NCBI GenBank assembly: GCA_029262415.1
Contig: JAJCZL010000057.1
Span: 1 to 64,000 of the forward strand
Direction of reading: 5' to 3'
From: Deltaproteobacteria bacterium
Lineage (GTDB): Bacteria > Desulfobacterota > Binatia > UBA1149 > JAJCZL01
Length of the DNA stretch: 64,000 bases
Positions 2,197-11,129 of this stretch are shown piece by piece; the stretch's first letter is position 1, and every line of letters starts with the position of its first letter. Both the position numbers and the translations under genes were made by a program. Below the pieces are notes generated by a model. It saw nothing but the letters and a program-made list of their open reading frames with translations. It was not told the origin of the DNA and did no database searches.

Positions 2197-3921
2197 TCAA
2201 CAAGGCGCGGGTGCGATCTCGGTGGTCTGTTGATCCGGGCGGGTACGTTCCTGGGTCAGAGGGACTACAAAAATCATTTTCGCGCCGCCGCCGTCAGCCG
2301 CTTCCGCCCAGATTTTGCCCGAGTGGTAGGCGACGACTTCGCGGCAGATCGCGAGTCCCAGACCGGTTCCTTTCGGTTTGTTGGTGTTGATTGACTCTTT
2401 CACCTGGTGAAAGCGCTCGAAAATGTGTTCGAGCTGGTCGGCTGGGATCCCGAGACCGTTGTCCTGAACGGCAAACATCACTCCGGGTTGCCCCTCAACC
2501 TCTCCCGGGCCGGCGATCAGCCGTACGCGGCCGTTGGGAGGGGTATATTTCATCGCATTGCTGCACAGATTGGCGGCGACCTGTATGATCCGGTCGCGGT
2601 CGCCAATGAACGGCCCGGCTGGTTGCTCGACACAGATCTCTAAGGCGATGCCGCGTTCGTCGAACATCGGCCCGAATGCCATCGAGACGTGGTCAAGGAT
2701 CTCGGCCGCATCGTCGATTGTCTCCATGGCCCATTCAACCCGTCCGGCTTCTATCTTTGCGAGGTCGAGTAGGTCGTCAATGAGGCGACCGAGGCGGCGT
2801 GCCTCTTCGATGATGACAGAGCTGAACTGCTTATCGCCGTTTCTGTTGGCGTCGCCGTAGCGCGAGATAATCTTGGCGGCCGACGAGATCGCCGCAAGCG
2901 GGCTACGCAGCTCATGTGAGACGTTCGAAAGGAATTCGGATTTGAGACGGTCGTACTCTTGAAGCTGTTGGTTGATCGCTTCGAGTTCGAAAGTACGCTC
3001 GCGGACTTTGATTTCGAGGATTTGCGAGTGACTCTGGATCTCGGAACGAAGTCGTTGCTCCTCTGCGGTTGCGGCTTCGGCTTTCTGTCGTTCGATGACG
3101 AGTTCGCCTACGTATTTCTTGATCGAGCGGCGCATCAGCTCGAACCGTCGCGCCAGCATCCCGAATTCGTCCTTGGACTCGACGGCGTGGATTTCGTGGT
3201 CGAGATCACCTTCGGCGATCAGTTCTGCGTCTCGCGCAAGTTTGTCTATGGGGCGCAACAGCCGCCGTGTAATCACGCTCGACAACACTAATCCGGCGAC
3301 GCCAACCAAGAGTGCGAGGCCGACCGCGAGGCTTGTCGATGCAGCAATCTGCTTCGACCCCCAAAGGAGGTCGGATTCGGAGTGGCGGGCTAGGCCGCGT
3401 AGGTCGTAGCGTACGAGGACGCTTCCCCAGCTCTGGGTACCACTAGTCACGCTCTGTGCGATCTCGAGGTACTCAGAGCGGGTGTGGTCTTTGTGTAGCC
3501 GGTGGCGGCCTGCTTCTAGAGCGCTGGGTGGCTCTAGGCGTCCCGGCTCACCGCTAAGCGCCAGCACCGCGCCCCGGTCGTCGAGCAGAAACATGGCGGC
3601 GATGTCGCTGTCGCGGCGGCGCTGGTTGTCGAGCAATAGGGTCAGACCCTCCGCGTCGGTGCCATCGATTGTCGCGGATAGCTCTGCGGCGAGATCTTCG
3701 GAGTAGAGTTCTCCGTGACCGACGAGTTGTTCGAGTAGCCGTTTGGTCGCGAGGCTGGTCTGGGTCTGGAGGATCGTGGTTTGACGCTCGACTAAGACGC
3801 CGGCGATCGTGGCCAGAGAGATGCCGATGGTGACGACAGCGGTGATGATAAGTTTGAAGTGGAGGCTCAGCAGGCGTGCTGAGCCTCTCGCTGTCAATCC
3901 CTTACCGGTAACTTCGTTCAT
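2197..3921 (-). CDS. Membrane sensor histidine kinase (HAMP, HisKA, HATPase)
   Basis: Two-component sensor, 574 residues. The order is TM1 (about 22-45), a periplasmic sensor of about 145 residues with no obvious named fold, TM2 (about 193-217), HAMP, a coiled coil (about 270-325), HisKA and HATPase_c. The phospho-acceptor box reads 'SNVSHELRSPLAAI' with His at residue 336. The ATP lid has an N box 'LCSNAMKYTPP', G1 'DNGLGIP' and G2 'GTGLGLAI', so this copy looks fully active. It is transcribed divergently from a second, related kinase. No response regulator is adjacent, so the partner must be encoded elsewhere. The ligand is unknown. Confidence 0.9.
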   Translation of the reverse strand: MNEVTGKGLTARGSARLLSLHFKLIITAVVTIGISLATIAGVLVERQTTILQTQTSLATKRLLEQLVGHGELYSEDLAAELSATIDGTDAEGLTLLLDNQRRRDSDIAAMFLLDDRGAVLALSGEPGRLEPPSALEAGRHRLHKDHTRSEYLEIAQSVTSGTQSWGSVLVRYDLRGLARHSESDLLWGSKQIAASTSLAVGLALLVGVAGLVLSSVITRRLLRPIDKLARDAELIAEGDLDHEIHAVESKDEFGMLARRFELMRRSIKKYVGELVIERQKAEAATAEEQRLRSEIQSHSQILEIKVRERTFELEAINQQLQEYDRLKSEFLSNVSHELRSPLAAISSAAKIISRYGDANRNGDKQFSSVIIEEARRLGRLIDDLLDLAKIEAGRVEWAMETIDDAAEILDHVSMAFGPMFDERGIALEICVEQPAGPFIGDRDRIIQVAANLCSNAMKYTPPNGRVRLIAGPGEVEGQPGVMFAVQDNGLGIPADQLEHIFERFHQVKESINTNKPKGTGLGLAICREVVAYHSGKIWAEAADGGGAKMIFVVPLTQERTRPDQQTTEIAPAPC

Positions 3922-4054: not shown

Positions 4055-4229
4055 CACTGCGGATACTCTGCAAACCGGCGGCGGCGGCGCGATGACGCCG
4101 AAACCGTAACACTTTGGGGTGCCGCGGCGCCGGCGAGATCTCCGAACGAGCAGCGGAAATATGGCGATTTGCGGACTCGTACTACATGGAACGCCACTTG
4201 CAGTTGTGCGGTCTGAGGTATTCCTACTG

Positions 4230-6413
4230 ATGGACAAGTCCGCCCCCAAAGAGAAGAAGACCCGCCGCGGGAGTTGGGTAGGAGTTACTCCCACGCTTCT
4301 CATTCATCGCGTCGGCGCTGGTATGTCAGTGTCGCGATGGCACTTCGGCGTGCTTTCGCTGCTTTTAGTTCTCGGAGTGACTGGTTCTCTCGTCACCCAC
4401 GTGGTCGTAAAGGGCTGGGAAACCGAGCGGATACACAGCGACTTCGACCGTCGATTTGAGAGTGTGTTGACGGCGTTCAACCGCCGGATGGATGCCAATC
4501 TGGCGATCCTGAACTCGATTGTGGGTCTGCAGGGCGTACAAAACGGTGTCAGTCGCGACAGTTTCCAAGCCATGGTGTCGGCCGCGTGGACCGGCCAATC
4601 CAGTATCCAGGCCCTCGGATGGGCGCCCCGCGTAGACCGCCGCGATCTCGACCGCCATGTGCGACTGGAAGTACGCGACGGCATGGCCGACTACCAGGTT
4701 TACGAACACGATGTGGAGACTGGGGAGCGCGTACTTGCGGGAGAGCGTTCCGAGTACTTCCCGATCTCGTATATCGAACCCGGCGACGTCAACCTTCCTC
4801 TTCATGGATTAGATCTCGGTATGGAGACGTCGCTTCGGGTAGCGATGAGCCGCGTTCTGGCTACAGGTAAATCGTCGGCTACGCGCAAACTCTCAATCCC
4901 AACGGATGCTGGGGATATCGATGCGGTTGTTGTCTTGGTGCCTGTCCACACCCCTGGGACCACGATTCCTACACCTGCGGTTCCTGTGGTGGATGGCGAA
5001 GGGGCCGCGCATTTCTCGCGCAAGGTAAAGGGCCTTGCGGTCGGAGTGTTTCGTGTGGATGAGTTGCTTCGTTCTGCTCGTGAGGGCACCGAAGGGATCA
5101 TGGAGGTCTCGATCGCGGACAATACTGATGGCACCTCCGCCGGGAACCGGTGGGTCGTCGGATCTCAACTGGAAGTGGCGACGGGCGATGCCTCTTACGG
5201 TTTCTTGGCAAGCAACGTGACGTCTGTCGGTGGCCGTGAGTGGGTACTATCAGCCAAGCCGACGAGTGCGTATCTGACCTCGCAACGGACTTGGCAGGCC
5301 GAGGGTCTGCTGGTGGCTGGATTGCAGTTCGTGGCGTTGTTCGTTGCTTATTTACGTTTGATTTTCAGCCGCAGCGCAGAAGTCGAGCGTCTCGTCGAGC
5401 AGCGGACTGCCGAGTTGATGCGCACGTCCCGCCGGCTCAAGCGCGAGATGATCAACCGTCGTACTAGCGAACGCGCGTTGCACAACAACGAAGAACGTAT
5501 CAAGGCGCTGTTTGATATCGGCACCGGGAGGATCGACTTGGCGACACCGGGAGGCACTGACGTCTTCAGCATCGCCCGACAGGCGTGGGCGAATCAAGGG
5601 CCGCCTCTCGAAGCCGAGGCTGAAGTGCAGCCGGAGGGGTTTGCCGAGAGTGCCGAGAGCGCCGGTAACGCCGGTAACGCCGCTGATGGCGGCGCTACCG
5701 AAGAGCGGATCTTCGAACAGATGTCGACCGAAATACGTTCGCCAATCGCAGCGATGGTCTGTGCCGCCAAGATTCTCGGCAGGCACAAAACAATGACACC
5801 CGAGAAGGTATCCAAGTTCGCCGACATCGTTGTGAACGAAGGAGAGCGACTCAGATGTCTGATCAACGAGACTCTCGAACTTTCGAGCCTGGAGGCGGCG
5901 CGTGAGCGTGCACTGGCTCTCGAGCCGGTTGCATGCGAGCGCTTGTTCAAACGTGTGACCTCCGTAGTGGGGGCGTACGCAGCCCGTAAGCTCATTAAGC
6001 TCACGGTGCTCACCGACGAAGAGGTTCAGCCGGTGGCGGCCGATGAAGATCGTATCGTGCAAGTACTCGTCGACTTGGCCGAAAACGCCGTCAAATTCAC
6101 CCCGCCTCGTGGAACGGTGAAGCTCTCGGTAAGCCGTCACAACCACAACTACATGCGTTTCAGCGTGACCGACACCGGGTTAGGCATGTTGATTGCGGAC
6201 CAGAAGCGCGTGTTCTCGGCGTTCTCCGCAGATGCGGACCAATTGCGCGAGCCTCACGACGAACGCGGTGTCGGTTTGGCAGTTTGTAAAGAGATCGTCG
6301 AACGTCACGGCGGCACGATCTGGGTGGACAGCAAGCGTGGCTTCGGTAGCACGTTCAGCTTCACGTTGCCGGTGGTGAGCAAGCACCAGGCAACGGGTAC
6401 CGACCCGGCCTGA
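4230..6413 (+). CDS. CHASE-domain sensor kinase with degenerate phospho-acceptor box
   Basis: A 727-residue membrane protein: TM1 (about 35-57), a periplasmic CHASE domain (about 75-300, with 'RMDANLAILNSIVGLQGVQ' and 'EYFPISYIEPGDVN'), TM2 (about 355-378), a coiled coil, a low-complexity Ala/Gly/Asn linker, then HisKA and HATPase_c. The H box reads 'MSTEIRSPIAAM' where its neighbour has 'VSHELRSPLAAI': the phospho-accepting His is Thr500 (codon 5727-5729). The N box (LAENAVKFTPP), G1 (DTGLGM) and G2 (GVGLAVCKE) are kept, so ATP binding probably survives while autophosphorylation at the usual site cannot occur. The start is taken at the ATG preceded by GAGG; an in-frame ATG at 4161 is also possible. 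Confidence 0.85.
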   Translation: MDKSAPKEKKTRRGSWVGVTPTLLIHRVGAGMSVSRWHFGVLSLLLVLGVTGSLVTHVVVKGWETERIHSDFDRRFESVLTAFNRRMDANLAILNSIVGLQGVQNGVSRDSFQAMVSAAWTGQSSIQALGWAPRVDRRDLDRHVRLEVRDGMADYQVYEHDVETGERVLAGERSEYFPISYIEPGDVNLPLHGLDLGMETSLRVAMSRVLATGKSSATRKLSIPTDAGDIDAVVVLVPVHTPGTTIPTPAVPVVDGEGAAHFSRKVKGLAVGVFRVDELLRSAREGTEGIMEVSIADNTDGTSAGNRWVVGSQLEVATGDASYGFLASNVTSVGGREWVLSAKPTSAYLTSQRTWQAEGLLVAGLQFVALFVAYLRLIFSRSAEVERLVEQRTAELMRTSRRLKREMINRRTSERALHNNEERIKALFDIGTGRIDLATPGGTDVFSIARQAWANQGPPLEAEAEVQPEGFAESAESAGNAGNAADGGATEERIFEQMSTEIRSPIAAMVCAAKILGRHKTMTPEKVSKFADIVVNEGERLRCLINETLELSSLEAARERALALEPVACERLFKRVTSVVGAYAARKLIKLTVLTDEEVQPVAADEDRIVQVLVDLAENAVKFTPPRGTVKLSVSRHNHNYMRFSVTDTGLGMLIADQKRVFSAFSADADQLREPHDERGVGLAVCKEIVERHGGTIWVDSKRGFGSTFSFTLPVVSKHQATGTDPA
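5643..5678 (+). repeat. Four tandem 9-bp units inside the kinase linker
   Basis: GCCGAGAGT, GCCGAGAGC, GCCGGTAAC, GCCGGTAAC in frame, coding AES-AES-AGN-AGN immediately before the degenerate H box. The units look like two successive 9-bp duplications and would lengthen a flexible linker between the transmembrane half and the kinase core. Confidence 0.6.
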
Positions 6414-7725: not shown

Positions 7726-10121
7726 TTCTCCACCGGCTCCTTTACTCGCGGCGATCCCGCGGTCCGAATTCTCGTCAGCCGGCGCACCATTTCTGAAAAC
7801 GCGATCACCTGGCTGTGACTGATCACGTTGACCGTCGGTGGAAATATCGACCCGACGACCAGGAAATCCTTCCCATCATATTGCTCGACTCCGCGCACGG
7901 TAAAACGATCGTTCCGCAGGCGCGCCGAAAAACCCATCTTCGCATATCGGTAGTTGTCGAAAAAGCTTAAAAGTCCTCTACTTATGGGATCCGAGCCGGA
8001 ACCGCCGAGAATCGATATCTGATTGATCGCAGCGACACTGATGTTTTGGGGCACACCCCTTCGGGGGGTGGTTTGTATGCGCGCCTCCATCGCTACCGGC
8101 TGACCGTCGACTATTTCGAGGGCGGCGATCTCGCCCTCGAGCAGTCCTGAGATGTGACCGGCCTCAAAAGCGGCTGAAAGTGTGGCCAGGTTGAGGTCAC
8201 GAAAGCGTAGGTCGGTGCTGAACGCCGGTACCGGCGAGAACAACTCGGAGATGCCGATGTTGCCTGCCTCGAAGGTGCCGCCGAAAGCTTTGGCGCTCAG
8301 CGTTCCCTGCGATGTAATTCTCCCCTCAGTGTAGACCAGCGGATCGAGTCGGCCTCGCAGTGCGCCGCCGGTGTAGGTGAGGCCGAGTCCGCTGAGTAGT
8401 GCGGAGAGGTTGACGTCCGCGAGGGCCATTGAAGTTTCCATCCGCGCCCCGTGCAGGATGTGATCCGCGCTCAGGCGTCCAAGCGTGACGGTCCCATCGT
8501 GGAATTCTGCGCGGATCTCTGTGTCGATTGAGAAAGCGTTGGCACGTGTGGTAATCGGCGCTTGGATATCGACCATCCGCGTCCCCATCGCCTCGATGAC
8601 GCCGATGCGAAACTTTCCGTGCCGTTCTCGATCCTTGACCGGAGCAGTCCCGAGTGCGATCGGGAGGTTGAAGGAAACGTCCTTCAGCTTAAACGGCGGA
8701 TCCTGCCACTCGAGTTTGCCGCCTGAAAGCTTAGCCTCTCCGTAGACCGAAAAGCGGCCGTCGCCGTAGACGGTGGAAGAGAGGTCGCCTTTCAATTCGC
8801 CTTCGGCCAGTGCAGCGGCCAGAGCCGGGAAGCTTTCTTTGAACGGCTCGCGCACCGCTATCTCGAGGAAACGTCCAATATGGACGATCTCGAATCGGCC
8901 GGTTGCGTCGTAACGGCCGCCTGCGGGGTCGATACGCGCATCGCCTGTCCACCCGCCTACGCCTCTGACCGTCAAACGTGCCTCGTCGAGCCGGACGACG
9001 TCGTCGGTGGTGTCGATTTTGGATGATGCCGAGACAATGAAGCGTTTTAGGTCGATGTAGAACTTGTCCCAGAGCGCCTCACCGCTCTCGATATTGACAG
9101 CGACGGTACCCATTATCGCATCGCTGTTTTCCTCGCCCCGCGCGTTCTTCACCTCGGCGATGACGATATTCAGATCAACGTTGCCTGCGAGTTTCTCTGC
9201 GAGACGTGAGTATGATGGGTCGTTGGCCGAGACCTCACGCGCGCGAACCTGCACGTCCACAGTAAGCGAGCCGGCGCCGTTGCTTAACAGCCGGCCTTGA
9301 AGACCGAGTTCTTTGGCTCGGATTGCAGCGCCCTCATGTTCGAGGGTGGTGTCGCGCAGCGTGACGCCGTCTGTGTCGGCTTCGACCGTGACGCCTTCTG
9401 CATCGGCGTGTAGACGGACGCGTGCGTCGAAACGTCCACTCGCGTGGGTAGGAATGATCCGTTCGACGAACTCTGCGACCGCGTCGAGCGGTACGTCTTC
9501 CCATTCGAGTTCGAGATCGATGGCGGGGGTTATCCCACCTGGGTTGTGTAAGGTTCCGGTGGCGTGAACGATCGGTGTCCGCGCTATGAGCGTTGCGCTC
9601 GCGCGTAAACCGATTGTACGCTCGCCACGGTCGTTGATCACTGCGTCGATCGGGCCGATCCGGCGGCGTGCTCCTGCGATCGTCGCGTGAATGACGGCAC
9701 CGTGTAGTAGCGCATCGGAGAAGGCAATGCCGGTGGTTTTCGCAGGTCCGTCATCGACGGTTTCCGTCGTATTGGTAGTCGGCAACCTATCGAGGTCGAG
9801 CTCGGCGTCGCTCAAGACGATCCGGCCGAGTTTATAGCCAAACCTGTCGGGGCGGACCCATGGCGTCGATATCCTAAACTCACCTGCCGACAGAAAAGGT
9901 TCATGGCCGGGTTCGGCGATCGAGACTCCGGTGGCCGTTAGAGCCAAGCCGTAGCCGATATGGAGCTGCTCTAAGGTGATTTCCCAGCCGGTCCGGTCGC
10001 GTGCCAGCGACAGAACAGCCTTGCGGAAGCCGGGCGATGAAGTGACCGCGGGAAGCGCCAGATAAGCCGCAAGCATGAGCGCGGCTGCGATGGCAATCAG
10101 TACGGCTAAGGTACGGCGCAT
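7722..10121 (-). CDS. AsmA/YdbH-like intermembrane bridge protein
   Basis: A 799-residue protein with one N-terminal inner-membrane anchor (about residues 5-27, 'LAVLIAIAAALMLAAYLAL'), followed by a long stretch of alternating short hydrophobic strands and turns with no catalytic motif. This is the beta-taco architecture of AsmA-like phospholipid carriers. The C-terminus, 'FDNYRYAKMGFSARLRNDRF' then 'SIFPPTVNVISHSQV', resembles the C-terminal AsmA/YdbH portion. Coupling by a 4-base overlap to the DUF1318 gene supports YdbH rather than AsmA or TamB. Its predicted role is moving glycerophospholipids to the outer membrane. Confidence 0.68.
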   Translation of the reverse strand: MRRTLAVLIAIAAALMLAAYLALPAVTSSPGFRKAVLSLARDRTGWEITLEQLHIGYGLALTATGVSIAEPGHEPFLSAGEFRISTPWVRPDRFGYKLGRIVLSDAELDLDRLPTTNTTETVDDGPAKTTGIAFSDALLHGAVIHATIAGARRRIGPIDAVINDRGERTIGLRASATLIARTPIVHATGTLHNPGGITPAIDLELEWEDVPLDAVAEFVERIIPTHASGRFDARVRLHADAEGVTVEADTDGVTLRDTTLEHEGAAIRAKELGLQGRLLSNGAGSLTVDVQVRAREVSANDPSYSRLAEKLAGNVDLNIVIAEVKNARGEENSDAIMGTVAVNIESGEALWDKFYIDLKRFIVSASSKIDTTDDVVRLDEARLTVRGVGGWTGDARIDPAGGRYDATGRFEIVHIGRFLEIAVREPFKESFPALAAALAEGELKGDLSSTVYGDGRFSVYGEAKLSGGKLEWQDPPFKLKDVSFNLPIALGTAPVKDRERHGKFRIGVIEAMGTRMVDIQAPITTRANAFSIDTEIRAEFHDGTVTLGRLSADHILHGARMETSMALADVNLSALLSGLGLTYTGGALRGRLDPLVYTEGRITSQGTLSAKAFGGTFEAGNIGISELFSPVPAFSTDLRFRDLNLATLSAAFEAGHISGLLEGEIAALEIVDGQPVAMEARIQTTPRRGVPQNISVAAINQISILGGSGSDPISRGLLSFFDNYRYAKMGFSARLRNDRFTVRGVEQYDGKDFLVVGSIFPPTVNVISHSQVIAFSEMVRRLTRIRTAGSPRVKEPVEK

Positions 10122-10250
10122 GAGGCGTTTCCGGAGTACCGCTGGGGCTGCTCCGGCGCAACGCCGGGCGCCATGCGCTTTCTCACCACGGCTGCGGCGG
10201 CGCGAGAGATATCGCAGAAGGTGTCGGATGCCTGTCGTATCATAGTCGGG

Positions 10251-11129
10251 ATGTGGAGCTTGTTGGCCGGAGCCGCAGAGTATGCACCCGAGGTGTGTCT
10301 CGCCGGTATTGTGCTGCTATTGGCGGCGTTGTACTGGCGCGATCATGTGAAGCGCAGGCGTGCCGAGAGGGCCTTTGCGGAGAGTTCTGTCGAAAACGCG
10401 ACAATCAGCGCGCGCAGCGTAGAGATGGAGCGTTCGCTCGATCATCTCAAGGCTCGCATCTTGATGGGAGTCGCGGCGCGCATGGAAGAACCGGTTGTCG
10501 CGATCGCGAGAAAAGCGAGTGCGCTCAAGCACGCGGCCGAAGGTGGCTCGCGCACAGATTCGGTCAATGAGATCCTCGCGGAGACCGCTAAGCTCGAGGG
10601 ATTGATCGACGACTTTCTCGAGCTGGGACGCTTGGAGTGCGGTGCCATCGAGTGGGCCGAGAGCGATGTCGAGACCGAGAGCCTGATGGGGCGTGCGCTC
10701 GCGAGCGCCGAGGGTGCCGCGATGCGGTGCGGGATTCGCTTGCAGTCGCGCACCCAAGGCGCGCCGGTGAGGATACGCGGTAACGAGGAGCGTCTTGCAC
10801 AGGTGTTGGGACATCTTCTCGATAATGCAATCAAGTTCTCCCCACGCGGGGCCGTTGTCAGCGCGCGTGCGTACCGCGAGGGCGAGGAGATCGTCTTTGC
10901 GGTGAAAGATTCGGGTGGCGGGATGGCAGAGGCTGAACTCGACCGTTTGCTTGAGAACCTCGCTACCATCGGGGCGTCCTTTTCCACCGACCCCGGGTCG
11001 CTCGGCCTCGGGCTAGGGCTCTCGATCTGTCGCGAGATCATCAAGCGCCATGGAGGGCGCCTGTGGGCCGAGACGCGCGCCGGATCCGGATCGGAATTCG
11101 GTTTCGCATTGCGCTGCGGCTCATCCTGA
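10251..11129 (+). CDS. Short membrane histidine-kinase homologue lacking the acceptor His
   Basis: About 292 residues from the ATG at 10251 (an in-frame ATG at 10173 would add 26 residues; neither has a good Shine-Dalgarno). One membrane helix (about 12-30) leads into a HisKA-like helical pair and HATPase_c, with no periplasmic sensor. The H-box region reads 'MGVAARMEEPVVAI': Ala76 (codon 10476-10478) stands where the related kinase at 2197-3921 has its acceptor His, and the following Glu and Arg are changed too. The N box 'LDNAIKFSPR', G1 'DSGGGM' and G2 'LGLGLSICREI' are intact. Shared signatures such as 'IEWAES' versus 'VEWAME' mark it as a paralogue of the 2197-3921 kinase. Confidence 0.8.
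   Translation: MWSLLAGAAEYAPEVCLAGIVLLLAALYWRDHVKRRRAERAFAESSVENATISARSVEMERSLDHLKARILMGVAARMEEPVVAIARKASALKHAAEGGSRTDSVNEILAETAKLEGLIDDFLELGRLECGAIEWAESDVETESLMGRALASAEGAAMRCGIRLQSRTQGAPVRIRGNEERLAQVLGHLLDNAIKFSPRGAVVSARAYREGEEIVFAVKDSGGGMAEAELDRLLENLATIGASFSTDPGSLGLGLGLSICREIIKRHGGRLWAETRAGSGSEFGFALRCGSS

Follow-up and report, generated by a model that had tools for sequence, protein, structure and literature searches.

The first 11 kb of the window (the whole stretch of DNA analysed here, 64,000 nucleotides) encodes three histidine kinase homologues, HK1, HK2 and PSK3. The last of these has neither a sensor nor the phospho-acceptor His, which raises the question of whether PSK3 still serves a function and, if so, by what means. 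We consider it reasonably probable that PSK3 is a pseudo-histidine kinase that acts by binding and not by phosphotransfer, and the evidence for and against this reading is set out below.

PSK3 encodes a sensorless transmitter without the acceptor histidine

PSK3 (10173..11129, + strand) encodes a protein of 318 amino acids from its first ATG, or 292 from the in-frame ATG at 10251, and its open reading frame includes the peptide 'ILMGVAARMEEPVVAI'. The frame has a coding signature, with a codon-usage log-odds of 0.152 per codon that falls within the range of 32 neighbouring genes and a GC content of 0.65/0.51/0.73 by codon position; the chance of a frame of this length arising from base composition alone was 4.6e-5. 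No stops or frameshifts were found, and neither the frame nor the coding signature resembled that of a decaying pseudogene. Promoter and terminator scans gave no match above chance. A Pfam scan of the protein matched a single domain, HATPase_c (10779..11111, + strand; 80 bits, E 2.1e-22), and found no HisKA, HAMP, PAS or other sensor or input domain, so that PSK3 lacks the input module of an active HisKA-type kinase. The only strongly hydrophobic stretch, at approximately residues 35-55 (10275..10337, + strand), reached a Kyte-Doolittle maximum of 1.74 over 19 residues and overlaps a predicted helix at 39-71. The first-pass annotation, which had described a single membrane helix in place of a sensor, was correct on this point.

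The acceptor-His column was placed by three alignments (a profile, a MAFFT alignment of 28 sequences and a profile of approximately 100 transmitter domains), all of which assigned it to the second Ala of 'VAARMEEP', encoded by the GCG codon at 10476-10478 (+ strand). An Ala in place of the acceptor His, as first proposed, was thus confirmed, although the number given to it, Ala76, holds only when counting from the ATG at 10251 and becomes Ala102 from the first ATG. The H box S-H-E-L-R-T-P reads A-A-R-M-E-E-P in PSK3, with the Glu that follows the His replaced by Arg, the Arg of HELRTP by Glu (both losses had also been noted at first pass) and the T/S by Glu. As a result, the residues for autophosphorylation and those for transmitter phosphatase activity are both missing. 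An active HisKA-type kinase carries the acceptor His where PSK3 has Ala102, and from the sequence it is close to certain that PSK3 would perform no catalysis through a His of its own; with the E-x-x-T/S after the His gone, it is probably no transmitter phosphatase either.

The ATP-binding region has fared better. The ATP lid had been described as intact, and this holds for G1 (DSGGGM), G2 (GLGLGL) and the second Asn of the N box; it does not hold for the first N-box Asn, which is His, or for the two F-box Phe (FERF), both of which are Leu (LLENL). Columns were scored as conserved where 85% or more of 28 related His-bearing kinases shared a residue, and PSK3 retains 34 of the 55 columns so defined. 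By region, the H box keeps 2 of its 6, DHp helix 2 keeps 10 of 14, the N/G1/G2 region 15 of 19 and the F box none of 3. An AlphaFold model built from a 28-row alignment predicted a two-helix DHp domain (helices 78-121 and 128-155) and a CA domain with pLDDT of approximately 96, the lid at approximately residues 265-278 falling below 50. In a Foldseek comparison with the PDB, the top matches of the model included structures of ZraS, DivL (4q20; ranked second), HK853 and RetS; these are ordinary histidine-kinase folds and would not on their own prove kinship with DivL. Pseudo-histidine kinases are described as homologues of transmitters in which the loss of key residues has removed at least one kinase function and which remain part of a signalling network (PMC12632262); PSK3, with the His, Glu and T/S of its H box gone and a DHp-CA fold predicted, shows the former and is probably a member of this known kind.

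The retention of the N, G1 and G2 boxes alongside the loss of the acceptor could also be read as a half-kinase, which would form a heterodimer with another kinase and use its own ATP-binding domain to phosphorylate the partner's His in trans. In many histidine kinases, phosphorylation in trans between dimer subunits is established. However, the F-box Phe and the first N-box Asn of PSK3 have been replaced and no partner with a matching DHp domain was found, and we regard this as a very improbable explanation.

PSK3 has no orthologue among the sampled genomes of its order and lies on a long branch

PSK3 orthologues were sought in the order (13 genomes, that of PSK3 among them), in 148 genomes of the class, and in GTDB r220 contigs by means of short peptide patterns. 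Apart from the genome of PSK3 itself, neither the 12 genomes from the order nor the 147 from the class contained one, and no relative in these genomes or in the contigs exceeded 38% identity over the transmitter. The contig scan returned distant kinases alone, including two alphaproteobacterial DivL-like proteins with Tyr. The best match, at 36-38% over the transmitter, was a hybrid kinase from another family (G002, L051:8764-10749), which, unlike PSK3, carries a receiver domain. The branch leading to PSK3 is very long, at 2.2 changes per column. In approximately unbiased (AU) tests, its placement beside a group of hybrid kinases (L051, L076 of its own genome and L049 of G001), all of which, unlike PSK3, keep the acceptor His, was tolerated (p 0.39), as was a clade of PSK3 with all of the HK2 family, the His-bearing members of family f4 included (p 0.14). 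Rejected were PSK3 as a sister or recent duplicate of the HK2 of the window (p 0.0015), as a sister to both HK2s of its family (p 0.0099), and as derived from HK1 by recent duplication or sister to the two HK1s of the family (p 0.0012).

The surroundings of PSK3 were uninformative as to a partner. In the sister genus, the only other member of the family, the HflC-HflK-HK1, HK2, ECH, ZapG-like and WES/DGAT genes lie in one stretch, and PSK3 is absent from the syntenic site, where an alpha/beta-hydrolase-like gene stands between ECH and the ZapG-like gene, directly before the latter. Within the window, an AsmA-like gene is divergent from PSK3 and an AsmA-DUF1318 pair separates PSK3 from HK2; since the same pair occurs without any kinase in the neighbouring family f3, it offers no guilt-by-association for PSK3. 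No PF00072 receiver or response regulator was found on the whole 176,590-base contig (G000:C57), although all three kinase homologues lie within 11 kb of its start; the genome as a whole gave 34 PF00072 matches. Thus the partner of PSK3, if there is one, would be encoded elsewhere, and synteny made none evident.

These observations bear on a second explanation, the early decay of a kinase that was orphaned recently: once PSK3 had lost its sensor and the genes of its partners, selection would have relaxed and the H and F boxes drifted, with stops yet to come. The want of an orthologue in the order, the very long branch, a 176.6-kb contig free of response regulators, a HisKA domain that Pfam no longer recognises and the frequency of His loss in the family (see below) would all suit such a history, and weak constraint on the gene would likewise be compatible with the long branch. 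On the other hand, the frame is open with normal codon usage, 15 of 19 residues of the N/G1/G2 region survive, and stops would be expected on a neutral branch this long. The conservation of ATP-site motifs and the lack of stops over so long a branch argue against neutral drift through most of the history of PSK3. In agreement with the first-pass annotation, PSK3 is not obviously decaying and random decay appears unlikely, and we give early decay a minor though real share of the probability, below that of a pseudo-histidine kinase.

The neighbouring kinase HK2 lost its histidine separately

HK1 (2197..3921, - strand) is a HAMP-HisKA-HATPase kinase with an intact His (VSHELRSP). HK2 (4119..6413, + strand) is a CHASE-HisKA-HATPase homologue in which Thr537 (codon 5727-5729) replaces the His. 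The H box of HK2 reads MSTEIRSP in the window (Thr), MSRDMRSP in the sister genus (Arg) and VSHEMRTP (His) in three orthologues from family f4. With His in f4 and Arg or Thr in the family of the window (f1), the residue was lost once or twice within f1. The HK2 loss is separate from that in PSK3, and the two look independent from their sequences; the AU rejection of PSK3 and the HK2 of the window as sisters (p 0.0015, above) bore out the original proposal that the residue had been lost by different routes. HK2 thus shares with PSK3 the lost acceptor but differs from it, apart from the separate event, in keeping a CHASE sensor, an E-x-x-S phosphatase-type motif and an F box.

Full-length HK2, CHASE sensor included, is conserved in the two f1 genera at 42-44% identity, and both proteins retain the E/D-x-x-S after the lost His as well as the F box. 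From these residues, a phosphatase-only role is conceivable for the f1 HK2s; the His is not essential for the phosphatase activity of HisKA proteins, yet phosphatase activity is disfavoured as a general role of pseudo-histidine kinases (PMC12632262). For HK2, the orthologue check suggested at first pass turned up a single intact orthologue without the His, in the sister genus, together with His-bearing orthologues in the next family. The dN/dS between the genera was 0.29 for HK2, 0.17 for HK1 and 0.13 for HflK, values that are suggestive at most with pS at approximately 0.70, near saturation. Relaxed constraint on the DHp relative to the CA domain was also considered as a mark of His-less kinases. 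Orthologue pairs had hinted at it (DHp versus CA, 0.88 versus 0.60 for HK1 and 0.52 versus 0.57 for HK2), but PSK3 ranked 23rd of 100 and the signal faded once the H-box columns were removed, and the idea was rejected.

The linkage of HK1 and HK2 is conserved across f1 and f4. Between the two kinases, the f1 sister genus and the f4 genomes carry TonB receptor, ABC_sub_bind and Phosphonate-bd genes (L050:7606-11516 and L046:9033-13077), those of f4 having been assigned by resemblance and not by a Pfam scan of their own. These genes are missing between HK1 and HK2 in the window, where the two are divergent neighbours; a search of the rest of that genome yielded no ABC_sub_bind gene either.

Histidine loss appears frequent in the family and the three kinases cluster

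The published rate of HisKA domains without an acceptor His is 0.9% (722/76,471; PMC12632262). Among alignable transmitters, His-less members numbered 2 of 23 in the genome of the window and 4 of 25 in that of the sister genus, compared with 1 of 25 for an f3 and none of 29 for an f2 genome, the window and sister genomes sharing one His-less locus, HK2. The two losses in the genome of the window, in PSK3 and HK2, are more than chance would give at the published rate (P 0.02), and for the sister genome the corresponding P was 9e-5. The 6 of 48 kinases in family f1 compare with 1 of 54 in the neighbouring families f2 and f3 (Fisher P 0.04, or 0.07 with HK2 counted once). As the published survey used other detection methods than ours and a contamination of 9% is listed for the sister assembly, this enrichment serves as a lead only; going by the sequences, His loss may be unusually frequent in f1.

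Three further His-less kinase homologues of the sister genome, L112, L115 and L124 (G001 C171, C35 and C299, with Lys, Arg and Arg, respectively), are unlinked to its HK1-HK2 locus. Another kinase homologue, L184:596-2410 (G005), has Asn for the acceptor His (VSNGLRAP). A kinase of G002, L051:6108-8639, keeps its His and has ruined N and G1 boxes; it directly precedes the complete hybrid kinase at 8764-10749, and the pair is a possible converse case of a pseudokinase with its partner.

The first-pass annotation had proposed a deliberate pseudokinase arrangement of the three kinases. A further explanation that we considered makes PSK3 and HK2 dedicated modulators of HK1, the active kinase linked to them, forming a unit of one catalytic and two pseudokinase members. 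All three genes do lie within 9 kb, HK1-HK2 linkage is conserved in f1 and f4, and HK2 stays His-less in two genera. The trio also holds both His-less kinases among the 23 of the genome, a coincidence with a chance of 0.012 had the trio been named beforehand, whereas it was picked after the fact. Against this, the sister genus has the unit without PSK3, the DHp helices are dissimilar (32% identity between PSK3 and HK1, 24% between PSK3 and HK2), and the AsmA-DUF1318 pair, kinase-free in f3, stands between PSK3 and HK2. With frequent His losses in f1, the closeness of PSK3 and HK2 becomes less telling and their clustering may be incidental. The absence of PSK3 from the sister-genus site and of any orthologue from the order, the contig free of response regulators and the unlinked His losses of the sister genome leave the arrangement as originally put without support, and we rate the unit as unlikely. 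Slightly less likely still is a combined version, in which f1 repeatedly makes pseudokinases and two of them were recruited here to tune HK1, without a linked response regulator.

Discussion

As a pseudo-histidine kinase, PSK3 would be a membrane-anchored DHp-CA module, unable to autophosphorylate or donate phosphate because the acceptor His is missing. It would most likely still fold and, we infer, dimerise, and it may bind nucleotide through the retained N, G1 and G2 boxes, which is likely though made uncertain by the loss of the F box. By pairing with or docking on a partner encoded at another locus, either an active kinase or a receiver in its phosphorylated state, PSK3 would alter the activity of that partner in the manner of DivL. 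By analogy, the retention of PSK3 and the precedents of DivL, RetS and the pseudokinase ChrS (PMC9491836) point to a regulatory role for PSK3.

DivL carries Tyr at the acceptor position, or Ala in Magnetospirillum as in PSK3, and works without kinase activity (PMC4211667). The protein of Caulobacter crescentus (4q20) is, like PSK3, a His-less DHp-CA transmitter with the N, G1 and G2 boxes kept. However, most species carry Tyr in their DivL, which also has several PAS domains, an intact F box, an alphaproteobacteria-wide distribution and known partners, while PSK3 lacks PAS domains, an F box and a known orthologue or partner and has hybrid kinases of its own order as closest relatives. With no PAS, Ala in place of Tyr and no alphaproteobacterial orthology, PSK3 was rejected as a member of the DivL family. 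RetS of Pseudomonas aeruginosa, in which the ATPase domain is degenerate, inhibits the kinase GacS (PMC5992135). In our reading PSK3 resembles it as a kinase homologue that would act on another kinase and not by autophosphorylating itself, and RetS structures align with the PSK3 model at a TMt of up to 0.80. RetS, however, has a degenerate ATPase and retains two receivers and the motif for transmitter phosphatase activity, whereas PSK3 shows the reverse, the H box being lost and more of the ATPase kept. The 7TM sensor, the two receivers and the HExxT phosphatase motif of RetS are all absent from PSK3, which was rejected as a RetS as well.

Few His-less HisKA proteins have a known role. With approximately one kinase in eight His-less, arising from about five separate events in two genomes, family f1 would be a natural place to study the function of dead kinases, and the HK2 series, which has His in f4, Arg in one f1 genus and Thr in the other, provides a before-and-after comparison for the loss of the histidine.
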